NCBI RefSeq assembly: GCF_001050155.1
Contig: NZ_LFVY01000009.1
Location: 124,001-188,000 of the forward strand
Source of the DNA: Nitratireductor soli
GTDB taxonomy: Bacteria; Pseudomonadota; Alphaproteobacteria; Rhizobiales; Rhizobiaceae
DNA length: 64,000 nt
Direction of reading: 5' to 3'
Position numbers and translations under genes: made by a program. Shown here one piece after another: positions 26,476 to 40,928 of the stretch. The notes beneath the pieces are model-generated. The model saw only the letters and a list, made by a program, of their open reading frames with translations, did no database searches and was not told the DNA's origin. Position 1 is the stretch's first letter; every line of letters starts with the position of its first letter.

Positions 26476-26883
26476 TCAGTCCGGCAGGACTGCCGTCGCC
26501 TCGATCTCCACCTTCGCCTGGTCCTCGATCAGCGCCGTCACCTGCACCACGCTCATGGGCGGAAAGTTGCGGCCCATCACGGCGCGATAGGCTTCGCCCA
26601 GTTCGCGCAGGCGGCTCGTGTAGGCCTGCTTGTCGGTGATGAACCAGGTGAGCCGCACCACATGCTCGGGGCCGCCGCCGGCCTCCTGCAGAAGGGCGGC
26701 GATGTTTTCCAGCGCCTGGCGCACCTGGCCGATGAAATCGTCGGTCTCGAAGACCTGATCGCCGGTCCAGCCGATCTGCCCGCCCAGGAAGACGGTGCGC
26801 CCCCGCGTGACCATGCCGTTGGAATAGCCCCGGGCGGGGGCCCAGTCGGCCGGCTGGAGAACTTGGTGAACGGGAGCGGTCAT
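26476..26883 (-). CDS. RidA/YjgF-family enamine/imine deaminase-like protein
   Basis: The 135-residue protein has the RidA fold pattern: NGMVTRGRTVFLGGQIGWTGD, ETDDFIGQVRQALENIAALLQEAGG, VVRLTWFITDKQAY and a C-terminal PPMSVVQVTALIEDQAKVEIEATAVLP. The usual catalytic Arg region is replaced by V-Q-V-T-A-L, so it belongs to a non-archetypal subgroup. It is the last gene of the 39.6-26.5 kb minus-strand series, 34 bases after livF. Relatives hydrolyse enamine/imine intermediates, which would fit removal of the amino group of an aminobenzoate-derived intermediate; that role is inference. Confidence 0.85.
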   Translation of the reverse strand: MTAPVHQVLQPADWAPARGYSNGMVTRGRTVFLGGQIGWTGDQVFETDDFIGQVRQALENIAALLQEAGGGPEHVVRLTWFITDKQAYTSRLRELGEAYRAVMGRNFPPMSVVQVTALIEDQAKVEIEATAVLPD

Positions 26884-26917
26884 GGTCTTTCCTTCGTACT
26901 GTCAAACTGAGGCGTGA

Positions 26918-27604
26918 TCACACGCCGAGAAAACGTTGCTGGGTTTCGTCGTCGAGGGCGGCCGGCGCGCCGTTCCAGACCGTGCGACCCTTCTCGAGGA
27001 TGGTGCAGCGGTCGGCAACCGGCAGGAGCTCGCTCAGCGTCTTGTCGACGATCAGGATCGATTGCCCCTCCTTCTTGACCGTGCGGATCGCCCGCCAGAT
27101 GTCCTGGCGGATGACCGGCGCCAGCCCCTCCGTCGCTTCGTCGAGGATGAGCAGGCTGGGATTGGTGAGCAATGCCCGGCCGATGGCCAGCATCTGCTGC
27201 TCGCCGCCCGACAACGTGCTGGCATATTGGCCGCGCCGTTCGGCCAGGCGCGGGAACAGCGCGTTGACGCCGGCCAGCGTCCATTTGCCGGTGCGGGCGG
27301 CGGCGAGCAGATTTTCCTCCACCGTCAGGTTCGGGAAGCAGCGCCGCCCTTCGGGCACGAGGCCGATGCCCAGGCGGGCGATCTTGTGCGGGCGCAGGCG
27401 GGCTATGTCCTTGCCGGCAAATCGTATCGTGCCCGACCGCGCTGGCGTCAGGTGACAGATCGAGCGGATGGTGGTGGTCTTGCCCATGCCGTTGCGGCCC
27501 ATCAGGGCCACCACTTCACCCTCGTCGACGGTCAGGTCGACGCCGAACAGGGCCTGCGACTTGCCGTAGAAGGTCTCCAGCCCGCGGATTTCGAGAAGCG
27601 TCAT
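26918..27604 (-). CDS. livF: Branched-chain-type ABC transporter ATPase LivF
   Basis: The 228-residue ATPase has Walker A MGRNGMGKTT, signature LSGGEQQMLAIGRALL and Walker B LLILDEATEGLAP, typical of LivF. It starts within the stop codon of livG (4-base overlap). The LivFGHM modules of this family import branched-chain or aromatic compounds. Its place in the anthranilate/tryptophan cluster suggests an aromatic substrate, by context only. Confidence 0.92.
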   Translation of the reverse strand: MTLLEIRGLETFYGKSQALFGVDLTVDEGEVVALMGRNGMGKTTTIRSICHLTPARSGTIRFAGKDIARLRPHKIARLGIGLVPEGRRCFPNLTVEENLLAAARTGKWTLAGVNALFPRLAERRGQYASTLSGGEQQMLAIGRALLTNPSLLILDEATEGLAPVIRQDIWRAIRTVKKEGQSILIVDKTLSELLPVADRCTILEKGRTVWNGAPAALDDETQQRFLGV

Positions 27605-28350
27605 GCGCCTTCTCCCAGATAGGCTTCGCGGACCGCCGGGTGATTGCGGATTTCATCGACCGTGCCCGTGGCGATGATGCGCCCGTAGACCAGAACGGAA
27701 ATGCGGTCGGCCAGGGCGAAGACGGCGTCCATGTCGTGCTCGACGAGCAGGATCGGCGCTTCCTGGCGCAATGTGGCGAGGAAGCTTGTCAGCGCCTGCG
27801 AGCCTTCCGGTCCCATGCCGGCCATCGGCTCGTCGAGCAGGAAGGCCTTCGCACCCAGCGCCAGGGCGATGGCGATCTCCAATTGCCGGCGCTCGCCATG
27901 CGACAGCTCGGCGGCTGGAATGTCGGCCCGGTCGGCCAGGCCGACGCGCGCCAGCGCTTCGCGGGCGGGCTCGGTCAGGCTGGTGTCGCGCATCACCGGG
28001 CGGAAGAAGCGGAAGCTCGATCCGGCGCGCGCCTGCACCGCCAGCATGACGTTGCGCAGGGCGGAGAATTCCGGCGCCAGCGACGACACCTGAAAGGTGC
28101 GGCCCATGCCGAGCCGCGCGCGCGCGGCCATGTCGAGCGGCTTGACGTCTTGGCCGGCGAAGCGGATGTCGCCGCTGTCGGGCTTCAGCGATCCGGCAAT
28201 CTGGTGGATCAACGTCGATTTGCCGGCGCCATTGGGACCGATCAGCGCGTGAATCTCGCCCGGCAGCAATGTGAGGCTGACGCCATCCGTCGCCTGCAGC
28301 GCGCCGAAGCTCTTGCGCAGATCGCGGATTTCCAGGATGGGCTCAGCCAT
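27601..28350 (-). CDS. livG: Branched-chain-type ABC transporter ATPase LivG
   Basis: The 249-residue ATPase has Walker A GPNGAGKST, signature LSHGERRQLEIAIAL and Walker B AFLLDEPMAGMGPEG, with the LivG-type C-terminus (VREAYLGEGA). It overlaps livM by 8 bases and livF by 4. The start at 28350 (MAEPILEIRDLRKSFG) is preferred; a six-residue longer form is possible. Confidence 0.92.
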   Translation of the reverse strand: MAEPILEIRDLRKSFGALQATDGVSLTLLPGEIHALIGPNGAGKSTLIHQIAGSLKPDSGDIRFAGQDVKPLDMAARARLGMGRTFQVSSLAPEFSALRNVMLAVQARAGSSFRFFRPVMRDTSLTEPAREALARVGLADRADIPAAELSHGERRQLEIAIALALGAKAFLLDEPMAGMGPEGSQALTSFLATLRQEAPILLVEHDMDAVFALADRISVLVYGRIIATGTVDEIRNHPAVREAYLGEGA

Positions 28351-39703: not shown

Positions 39704-39767
39704 ATAGCACACCTGCGGTCAGTGTACAGTATGAAACCGGCCGATGACAGGGAGCGGCCGGCAGGCT

Positions 39768-40637
39768 ATGCACAGGGTCGCCTGGCCATCGATGGAGGAA
39801 CTGAGCGTGTTTTATCGGGAAATCAGCGACTGGGACGACGCTTATGCCAATGGCGCCAACATTCCAGGCGGCGATCGCTGGCCGGATGCCTGGGTCGCGC
39901 CGGCGCGGGCCTATCGTGAAAAACTGTCGGCGGCCGGCAGGGCCGAACTCGACATCGCCTATGGCGAGGGCGCGCGCAACCGGTTCGACCTGTTCCTGCC
40001 GGAGGGGGCTCCGCGCGGGCTCGTCGTCTTCATCCATGGCGGGTTCTGGCTGCGCCTCGACAAGAGCTTCTGGTCGCATCTGGCGGCCGGCGCGGTGGAC
40101 AGCGGCTATGCCGTGGCGATGCCGTCCTACACGCTGTGCCCGGAAAACTCCGTTTCCGGCATCACCGCAGAGATCGGCCGCGCGGTGACCGCGGCGGCCG
40201 GGCGCGTCGACGGCCCGCTGATCGTGACCGGGCATTCGGCGGGCGGTCATCTGGCGAGCCGCATGGCCTGCACCTCCTCGCCGCTCCCCGAAGCCGTTCG
40301 GGCGCGCCTGCGGCATGTTCTGTCCATCTCCGGCGTTCACGACCTGCGTCCGATGATGCGGACGGCGATGAACGAGGATCTGAAGATAACCGCCGAGGAG
40401 GCACTGGCCGAAAGCCCGGCGCTTCTGCAGCCTTTGCCCGGCGCCCAGCTGACCTGCTGGGTGGGTGCGGCCGAACGCGGCGAATTCCTGCGGCAGAACG
40501 CGTTGCTCGCCAATGTCTGGACCGGGCTCGGCGCACGGACCGCCACCGTCGAGGAGCCGGACCGGCATCATTTCGACGTCATCGACGGGCTGGCCGACGC
40601 GAACCACCAGATGGTGCGCTGTCTGTTGACAGTGTGA
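39768..40637 (+). CDS. Alpha/beta hydrolase, kynurenine-formamidase-like
   Basis: About 289 residues. The oxyanion motif HGGFW (VVFIHGGFWLRLDKSFWSHLA), nucleophile elbow GHSAGGHLA and a C-terminal EEPDRHHFDVIDGL with the catalytic His place it in the arylformamidase (AFMID) branch of carboxylesterase-like hydrolases, which convert N-formylkynurenine to kynurenine. This is not the cyclase-fold KynB of Pseudomonas. Starts at 39744, 39768 and 39792 are in frame; I used 39768, which has a purine-rich GGCAGG upstream. It is divergent from the kynA operon and shares its control region. Confidence 0.8.
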   Translation: MHRVAWPSMEELSVFYREISDWDDAYANGANIPGGDRWPDAWVAPARAYREKLSAAGRAELDIAYGEGARNRFDLFLPEGAPRGLVVFIHGGFWLRLDKSFWSHLAAGAVDSGYAVAMPSYTLCPENSVSGITAEIGRAVTAAAGRVDGPLIVTGHSAGGHLASRMACTSSPLPEAVRARLRHVLSISGVHDLRPMMRTAMNEDLKITAEEALAESPALLQPLPGAQLTCWVGAAERGEFLRQNALLANVWTGLGARTATVEEPDRHHFDVIDGLADANHQMVRCLLTV

Positions 40638-40691
40638 GGCGATGCGCCGAGTCTCGGCCAACCTTTTTTTCAACCCGTTCACGGAACCCCG

Positions 40692-40928
40692 ATGAGACCC
40701 GTTTTCGTTCAAGTGCGCTGCAAGCCCGGCAAGACCTACGAGGTCGCCGACGAAATCTACAAGCGTGAAATCGCCTCGGAGCTCTATTCGACCAGCGGCG
40801 ATTACGACCTCTTGATGAAGGTTTATATCGAGGACGGCGTCGATGTCGGAAAGTTCATCAGCGAGAACATCGCCAGCGTGCCGGGCATCCGCCGCTCGCT
40901 GACGACGCTGACGTTCAAGGCTTTTTAG
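40692..40928 (+). CDS. Stand-alone Lrp/AsnC ligand-binding (RAM) domain protein
   Basis: 78 residues covering only the alpha/beta RAM domain of Lrp/AsnC regulators (FVQVRCKPGKTYEVADEIYKREIASELYSTSGDYDLLMKV, then IASVPGIRRSLTTLTFKAF). No helix-turn-helix is present and there is no upstream in-frame coding sequence for one. Such proteins may sense amino acids or form hetero-oligomers with full regulators. It follows the formamidase-like gene by 54 bases in the same direction, so a tryptophan/kynurenine sensing role is possible but unproven. Confidence 0.85.
   Translation: MRPVFVQVRCKPGKTYEVADEIYKREIASELYSTSGDYDLLMKVYIEDGVDVGKFISENIASVPGIRRSLTTLTFKAF

Follow-up and report, generated by a model that had tools for sequence, protein, structure and literature searches.

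Gene content of the cluster

A 64,000-bp stretch of the Nitratireductor soli genome (G000:C58:124001-188000; 5.12 Mb in 58 contigs, 99.5% complete), here called the window, was analyzed. It holds a gene cluster in which tryptophan 2,3-dioxygenase (KynA) is encoded together with a set of enzymes that likely degrades anthranilate as its CoA ester. By reading of the open reading frames (ORFs), thirteen consecutive genes occupy the minus strand between positions 39600 and 26476. A further gene at 39744-40637 is divergent from them, with a 143-bp intergenic stretch separating it from the operon. The genes are listed below in operon order, followed by the divergent gene.

37309-39600, minus strand: 2-aminobenzoyl-CoA monooxygenase/reductase-like protein (ACMR), FAD monooxygenase plus Old Yellow Enzyme domain (PRK08255, PF01494, PF00724; 49% identical to the pAL1 protein)
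36551-37312, minus strand: SDR family oxidoreductase (family models; second gene in many relatives)
36081-36557, minus strand: MarR family regulator, probable operon repressor (PF12802, PF01047; third gene in many relatives)
35272-36084, minus strand: crotonase, candidate ring-opening or hydrating enzyme (PRK08258, 479 bits, cut-off 330)
34130-35272, minus strand: acyl-CoA dehydrogenase, ACAD (PF00441, PF02770)
32494-34119, minus strand: predicted anthranilate (2-aminobenzoate)-CoA ligase (54% identical to the pAL1 ligase; best PDB match 4wv3)
31664-32497, minus strand: tryptophan 2,3-dioxygenase KynA (TIGR03036, 413 bits, cut-off 391)
30474-31610, minus strand: LivK-type substrate-binding protein (PF13458; nearest solved chains 4evq and 4ey3)
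29324-30244, minus strand: LivH permease
28343-29314, minus strand: LivM permease
27601-28350, minus strand: LivG ATPase, likely start 28350
26918-27604, minus strand: LivF ATPase
26476-26883, minus strand: Rid family protein, Met110 replacing the RidA arginine (PF01042; below the TIGR00004 cut-off)
39744-40637, plus strand: alpha/beta-hydrolase, probably a serine-type N-formylkynurenine formamidase (HGGFW and GHSAGGH motifs, synteny with kynA)

All genes named in the initial annotation, which had been made from the sequence alone, were found to be open and of the claimed families. Curated models were used for the enzymes, the regulator, LivK and Rid, while LivH, LivM, LivG and LivF were assigned from ORF translations, gene order and matches in relatives. 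The likely start of the ACMR gene is 39600, compared with 39675 given by the ORF caller. The earlier description of the series as knit together by overlaps of 1-8 bases holds for the majority of the enzyme genes and for some of the transporter genes, since 7 of the 12 gene junctions overlap (by 4, 7, 4, 1, 4, 8 and 4 bases) while the other 5 show gaps of 10, 53, 229, 9 and 34 bases.

Enzymes of the proposed CoA route

The substrates and regulation assigned here are inferred throughout from homology and synteny. ACMR scored 1291 bits against the PRK08255 model for the monooxygenase/Old Yellow Enzyme fusion (cut-off 1078), with PF01494 spanning residues 26-323 and PF00724 residues 420-753. This confirms the oxygenase/reductase architecture of the aerobic 2-aminobenzoyl-CoA pathway that had been recognized initially. 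Against the model of the benzoate-CoA ligase family the ligase scored 372 bits, narrowly missing the cut-off of 375, and its best PDB match was the anthranilate-CoA ligase 4wv3 with 288 bits, compared with 259 bits for the best benzoate-CoA ligase. Counterparts on plasmid pAL1 of Arthrobacter Rue61a are 54% (ligase) and 49% (ACMR) identical. According to excerpts of PMC3534580, expression of a pAL1 ligase gene in E. coli yielded activity on anthranilate, anthraniloyl-CoA was found in anthranilate-grown cells, and a chromosomal ligase paralog of Rue61a is 50% identical to the Azoarcus evansii enzyme. We infer from its place beside the ACMR gene that the pAL1 ligase compared here is the one assayed, and the ligase of the window is likewise predicted to act on anthranilate. 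The features expected of a 2-aminobenzoyl-CoA pathway are present, namely a two-domain ACMR, an AMP-forming aryl-CoA ligase within the cluster and linked beta-oxidation-type enzymes (SDR, crotonase, ACAD). A 2-aminobenzoyl-CoA cluster is described as vital for anthranilate degradation, based on proteomics and genetics, in the part of PMC6221969 drawn on here.

Kynureninase is not encoded in the window, and the initial annotation had suggested that it might lie elsewhere. A kynU gene is in fact present on contig C2 (G000:C2:168233-169387), with 315 bits for TIGR01814 (cut-off 246), adjoined by a divergent gene for a GntR-type regulator and by an amino-acid ABC permease gene. The genome has one KynA gene, matched in two stretches. 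In case of the catechol route, no genome protein scored above the model cut-offs for anthranilate 1,2-dioxygenase (AntA, AndAc) or catechol 1,2-dioxygenase (CatA), and this route was rejected. The single ring-hydroxylase alpha subunit found (contig C57) reached, when scored whole, 206 bits for BenA (cut-off 781), 165 for AntA (672) and 114 for AndAc (750), and the two intradiol dioxygenase genes encode the protocatechuate 3,4-dioxygenase subunits PcaG and PcaH, not CatA. As a result, the CoA route is, for the fate of ANTHRANILATE, the only anthranilate route with all first enzymes found by the models tried. Both the presence of kynU and the lack of matches above cut-off for these dioxygenases support the earlier proposal of degradation via the CoA thioester instead of catechol.

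Conservation in relatives

Relatives of the cluster were drawn from named genomes as the best 80 of 593 confirmed loci and are thus a sample of the closest ones. Counts are based on 57 of these 80 loci, in which the ACMR gene is flanked by at least 3 kb upstream and at least 9 kb downstream; the other 23, with shorter flanks, were excluded. Gene presence was judged within the available flanks at fixed identity thresholds. As rows are related by descent, p-values serve only as a guide. All six core genes are present in 42 of the 57 relatives, and 44 show ACMR-SDR-MarR-crotonase-ACAD in this order on a single strand; because of this conservation and the recurrence of the cluster in the genus, the gene order is not a product of chance. 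KynA is encoded in 22 of the 57 loci. KynU was found near 14 of these 22 clusters and near none of the 35 without KynA (Fisher p about 4e-8, rows not independent), with the order ligase-KynU-KynA in 7 of the 14 (Aquibium, Aquamicrobium, a Rhizobiaceae metagenome-assembled genome (MAG) and four Thalassospira). A KynU search of 16 chosen records matched 14, and for all 8 clusters with KynA and no nearby KynU it located KynU elsewhere in the genome. The two records without a match were Pseudolabrys, with no KynA in its cluster, and the megaplasmid of R. pomeroyi, for which the chromosome was outside the search.

Within the genus of the window, KynU and KynA are both encoded in 10 of 10 genomes (searched set: 60 relatives). 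In the nine other genomes KynA directly follows the ligase, and no KynU is seen in the fetched cluster region (cut by contig ends in G207 and G203). KynU lies, by coordinates, on a different contig or more than 0.75 Mb from the cluster. The term island, if taken to mean that the cluster was acquired recently, is not supported, as kynA is present in all ten genus genomes searched and sits within the cluster in the fetched regions. A KynU tree of 48 rows groups all ten copies from the genus in a single clade (100/99), separate from the operon copies of Aquibium, Aquamicrobium and the Rhizobiaceae MAG, with moderate support at deeper forks (92/89, 93/89); two rows labelled solo (L192 and L193) duplicate the operon copies of L046 and L045. 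With this topology and support, a recent move of kynU out of the operon is no more likely than replacement or an ancient split arrangement. In the surroundings of kynU (G000:C2:160000-178000, positions 4654-8228), the GntR gene was matched in all ten genus regions (one partially) and the permease in 8 of 10. In the genome of the window, an integrase-like ORF lies just past the permease with no other transporter ORF of at least 130 residues between them (by eye), a picture resembling an operon disrupted by an insertion; no tRNA gene was found in that 18-kb stretch.

Divergent promoter and MarR regulator

The intergenic region contains the following elements.

39672-39691: palindromic operator-like site 2 (24.6 bits; motif built from 66 upstream regions)
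39686-39705: palindromic operator-like site 1, overlapping a -10-like element (28.8 bits)
39701-39728, minus strand: sigma-70-like promoter TGTACA-16-TATATT, the second hexamer being preceded by TG (pattern match)

The divergent promoter of the window thus carries two tandem copies of the palindrome ATTTCAAnnTTGAAAT at an offset of 14 bp, of which the upper one (39686-39705) overlaps the -10-like hexamer TATATT. The promoter-like pattern by itself is no better than chance (2 sites in 14.6 kb compared with a mean of 1.6 in shuffles). The palindrome was counted in the 200 bp upstream of ACMR in 86 loci (the window, 77 of the 80 named loci and 8 genus regions). With at most 2 mismatches, ATTTCAAnnTTGAAAT was found in 54 of these 86 regions, compared with 1 of 1720 shuffled sequences and 19 of 1720 random windows from the same loci, a few of the latter possibly including the true site. 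Because these same regions also served to choose the pattern, the shuffles do not control for that choice; a chance origin is nevertheless unlikely because the difference from the shuffles is so large. The 14-bp offset recurs in all 8 genus regions scanned as well as in L045-L048, R. pomeroyi and P. denitrificans, and is 15 bp in the two Thalassospira scanned. No further site of at least 10 bits exists in the 64-kb window. The palindrome pair is likely the MarR operator.

Divergent hydrolase, importer and Rid protein

The divergent gene had initially been called formamidase-like. It encodes an alpha/beta-hydrolase with an HGGFW motif at residue 98, a GHSAGGH motif at residue 163 and a late histidine at residue 275, whose matches in the PDB include the putative esterase 2pbl (281 bits) and, more distantly, Drosophila kynurenine formamidase 4e11 (E 2e-13). 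A relative of 50% identity stands in tandem with kynA in R. pomeroyi, and one of 68% identity is divergent from a ligase-kynA operon in Aminobacter. Such relatives are more common in clusters with KynA (10 of 22) than in those without (4 of 35; p about 0.01). The initial name is weaker than stated, as the protein is not orthologous to bacterial KynB and its role as formamidase is deduced from synteny with kynA and distant similarity. As described in excerpts of PMC4243253, bacterial KynB has a binuclear zinc site and is unrelated to the eukaryotic serine-type formamidase. For zinc-dependent KynB (TIGR03035), no protein in the genome exceeded the cut-off of 223, and two matched weakly (29 and 36 bits whole). 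We propose that the serine-type hydrolase stands in for KynB, and consider it fairly probable, judging from motifs and gene context, that it is the N-formylkynurenine formamidase. Mutual exclusion of the hydrolase and zinc KynB was considered and dropped: the KynB-like metal motif occurs in the available flank of none of 24 kynA clusters, of which 10 carry the hydrolase and 14 carry neither, and it is found in the flank of 6 loci without kynA.

Uptake of tryptophan or kynurenine, as proposed initially for the Liv-type importer, has become a weaker suggestion than stated, and import of anthranilate or another aromatic acid is now the probable function. A close LivK (at least 55% identity) is encoded near 17 of the 57 clusters, 11 with and 6 without KynA; it is also found in Phyllobacterium and Paracoccus plasmid clusters showing no KynA in the 30 kb fetched. 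As the importer is thus not confined to clusters with kynA, its substrate is more likely anthranilate, or a different aromatic acid, than tryptophan. The nearest solved relatives of LivK are 4evq and 4ey3, which we take to be hydroxybenzoate/benzoate binders.

The Rid protein scores below the TIGR00004 cut-off, and its Met110 replaces the catalytic arginine of RidA, presumably Arg105 of the E. coli protein. This residue aligns with the arginine of the PAR motif in 4 of 5 solved relatives (6l8p, 6tcd, 6tcc, 3l7q), the fifth, 3i7t, also being without arginine. Methionine occupies this place in all 53 aligned Rid proteins from such clusters, pAL1 included (rows chosen by similarity to the window protein). 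Judged by that residue, the protein falls outside the canonical RidA enamine/imine deaminases, and any action on the enamine that ACMR produces is speculative.

Interpretation and alternative explanations

Gene families and order, the kynU gene in the genome and the conservation of the palindromes are direct observations. We consider it quite likely that the window encodes one catabolic operon, under the control of MarR, through which tryptophan and anthranilate are degraded, the latter as its CoA ester. SDR, crotonase, ACAD and perhaps Rid would between them deaminate, open and beta-oxidize the ring, and LivKHMGF would most likely import anthranilate or a similar aromatic acid. MarR would probably repress both divergent transcripts at the two palindromes 14 bp apart and may be released by an aryl-CoA such as anthraniloyl-CoA.

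Several points weigh against this interpretation. The gene kynA is missing from the flanks of 35 of the 57 relatives, so that tryptophan is likely only one source of anthranilate. Further, kynU lies outside the operon beside a GntR gene, and no operator-like site of at least 9 bits was detected in the ten fetched kynU regions (own genome and nine genus genomes). Co-regulation with the operon is hence not predicted, and control of kynU by the MarR operator was rejected. The ligase scores slightly less than the cut-off of its subfamily requires, the sequence does not reveal which substrate it prefers, and excerpts of PMC3534580 consider benzoyl-CoA as another possible product of the anthranilate ligases of Rue61a. 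For Cupriavidus metallidurans, both kyn and abm genes were reconstructed and yet growth on anthranilate was not observed (PMC8879955, in the part available), so gene presence alone is no proof. In case of the divergent hydrolase, 12 of the 22 KynA clusters carry no relative at the threshold used, 4 clusters without KynA do carry one, and a 32% identical relative on pAL1 follows the quinaldine dioxygenase gene meqE, at a place where an N-acetylanthranilate amidase is expected. An amidase of this kind with an alpha/beta-hydrolase fold is known from that strain (title cited in PMC3534580). Together with the NCBIfam family name hormone-sensitive lipase and the two weak KynB matches in the genome, these data would fit an N-acylanthranilate amidase or an ordinary esterase, with a KynB-like protein elsewhere performing the formamidase step. 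We regard this as a possible but rather unlikely explanation, given the position of the hydrolase next to kynA in R. pomeroyi and opposite the ligase-kynA operon in Aminobacter, its enrichment with kynA and the lack of a genome protein above the KynB cut-off.

Other assignments of the whole pathway were found to be much less probable than the tryptophan and anthranilate operon. KynA could feed 3-hydroxyanthranilate via kynurenine 3-monooxygenase and 3-hydroxyanthranilate 3,4-dioxygenase, leaving the CoA genes for external anthranilate only. The latter enzyme is indeed encoded in the genome (C57:109664-110107; TIGR03037, 278 bits, cut-off 146), but in a quinolone-type cluster where no KynA or KynU match was found, and this version is considered very unlikely. 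The 8 strongest of 22 PF01494 matches were typed as two PobA, two UbiH/UbiF, two PRK08132 and two salicylate/3-hydroxybenzoate hydroxylase-like proteins, a ninth beside the 3,4-dioxygenase is nearest to MHPCO in the PDB, and kynurenine 3-monooxygenase was not near the top of the PDB ranking for three of the eight; this negative covers the typed matches only, as 13 weaker ones (the C14 gene apart) are untyped and no model for the monooxygenase was in the outputs, so that its absence is not proven. The quinolone-type cluster (G000:C57:100000-118000, positions 3021-13422) is a second aromatic cluster that encodes an MHPCO-like FAD monooxygenase, a 3-hydroxy-4-quinolone 2,4-dioxygenase-like protein (3ibt, 265 bits) and an amidase/formamidase-like alpha/beta-hydrolase, which are 47, 43 and 46% identical to proteins of the pAL1 quinaldine genes. 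It also holds genes for a LysR regulator (by eye), an aldehyde dehydrogenase, a DapA-like protein, the 3-hydroxyanthranilate dioxygenase, a Liv-type binding protein and an amidase, and may convert a (hydroxy)quinolone to N-formyl(hydroxy)anthranilate and CO, feeding 3-hydroxyanthranilate or anthranilate.

A salicylate pathway via salicylyl-CoA 5-hydroxylase and gentisyl-CoA is suggested by the NCBIfam name of the fusion protein (bifunctional salicylyl-CoA 5-hydroxylase/oxidoreductase). This pathway consists of a single-domain salicylyl-CoA 5-hydroxylase, a salicylate adenylating ligase and a thioesterase, whereas the window protein has an additional Old Yellow Enzyme domain and shares an operon with kynA. 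Salicylate is better matched by a separate set on contig C14, comprising a single-domain relative of 36% identity, a ligase that resembles (2,3-dihydroxybenzoyl)adenylate synthase but stays below the cut-off (344 bits) and a thioesterase with a weak match to the YbgC type; a salicylate pathway in the window was rejected as highly improbable. The C14 set (G000:C14:66000-82000, about 1466-10024) is accompanied by TRAP-type transporter genes (by eye) and perhaps represents the salicylyl-CoA/gentisyl-CoA pathway. The least probable reading is that ligase and ACMR act mainly on CoA esters of benzoate or hydroxybenzoate. The membership of the ligase in the benzoate-CoA ligase family, the possible benzoyl-CoA formation by related ligases mentioned above and the proximity of LivK to the presumed hydroxybenzoate/benzoate binders 4evq and 4ey3 point in this direction. 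The oxygenase, however, is a flavin monooxygenase/Old Yellow Enzyme fusion and not a BoxAB-type epoxidase as we understand that enzyme, and the ligase is closer to the structure of an anthranilate-CoA ligase, as described above.

Beyond the 3' end of the operon, window positions 22244-26429 hold a gene for a Fur-family-like regulator followed by genes for a metal-importer-type binding protein, an ATPase and two permeases (by eye).

Both pathway halves are already known, and the window provides a good example that is shared across the genus and has a clearly recognizable control region. The joint route may be touched on by proteomic work reported for the breakdown of amino acids in Phaeobacter inhibens. 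Among the papers listed in a literature search with most subscription journals outside its scope, none was found on a gene cluster of kynA and 2-aminobenzoyl-CoA genes. In excerpts of PMC9007349 the joint route is named as left out for lack of knowledge, and kyn and abm genes are reported together in one genome in the part of PMC8879955 drawn on here. The operon joins both halves compactly, and for the lower steps its conserved genes for SDR, crotonase, ACAD and Rid suggest themselves as candidates, while the searchable operator-like site and the operon make the lower-pathway gap testable, for example in Ruegeria pomeroyi. If true, the interpretation would correct the database names salicylyl-CoA 5-hydroxylase and hormone-sensitive lipase. 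The formamidase, operator and Met-type Rid leads would add interest if proven.

Comparison with known systems

The megaplasmid of Ruegeria pomeroyi DSS-3 (SPO_RS21860-SPO_RS21905) shows kynA and an alpha/beta-hydrolase divergent from ACMR-SDR-MarR-crotonase-ACAD-cupin-ligase-Rid, again with two palindromes 14 bp apart. It differs from the window in having kynA on the divergent side, an extra cupin and no Liv importer in the 30 kb shown. The clusters of Aquibium, Aquamicrobium, the Rhizobiaceae MAG and four Thalassospira (L045-L047, L052, L057, L058, L094) have the same order including kynA, and LivK in all but L057; unlike in the genus of the window, kynU is placed between ligase and kynA. On plasmid paAMD1 of Aminobacter niigataensis (L229, 7856-17446), a divergent hydrolase is followed by a ligase overlapping kynA and then by LivKHMGF, whereas no ACMR core is seen in the 19.6 kb shown and kynU (52% identity) follows in the opposite direction. 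Hydrolase, ligase and kynA are 68, 86 and 74% identical to those of the window. This gene set without ACMR ties the ligase and the hydrolase to the kynurenine genes and indicates that the kynurenine half plus ligase can form a module of its own.

The pAL1 quinaldine/anthranilate cluster of Arthrobacter Rue61a shares a Rid protein, the ligase and an ACMR-type protein, with anthranilate being supplied by an upper pathway, as far as excerpts of PMC3534580 go. In contrast to the window, that upper pathway starts from quinaldine, PaaX-type regulators are nearby and no kynA is present in the 40 kb shown. The 2-aminobenzoyl-CoA pathway of Azoarcus evansii (Schuhle et al. 2001, via excerpts of the review PMC4539516) likewise uses an AMP-forming ligase, a flavin monooxygenase/reductase and further degradation of the beta-oxidation type. 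Compared with this system as described there, the cluster of the window is additionally linked to kynA, to a divergently transcribed gene that may encode the formamidase and to a MarR gene together with its operator-like site.

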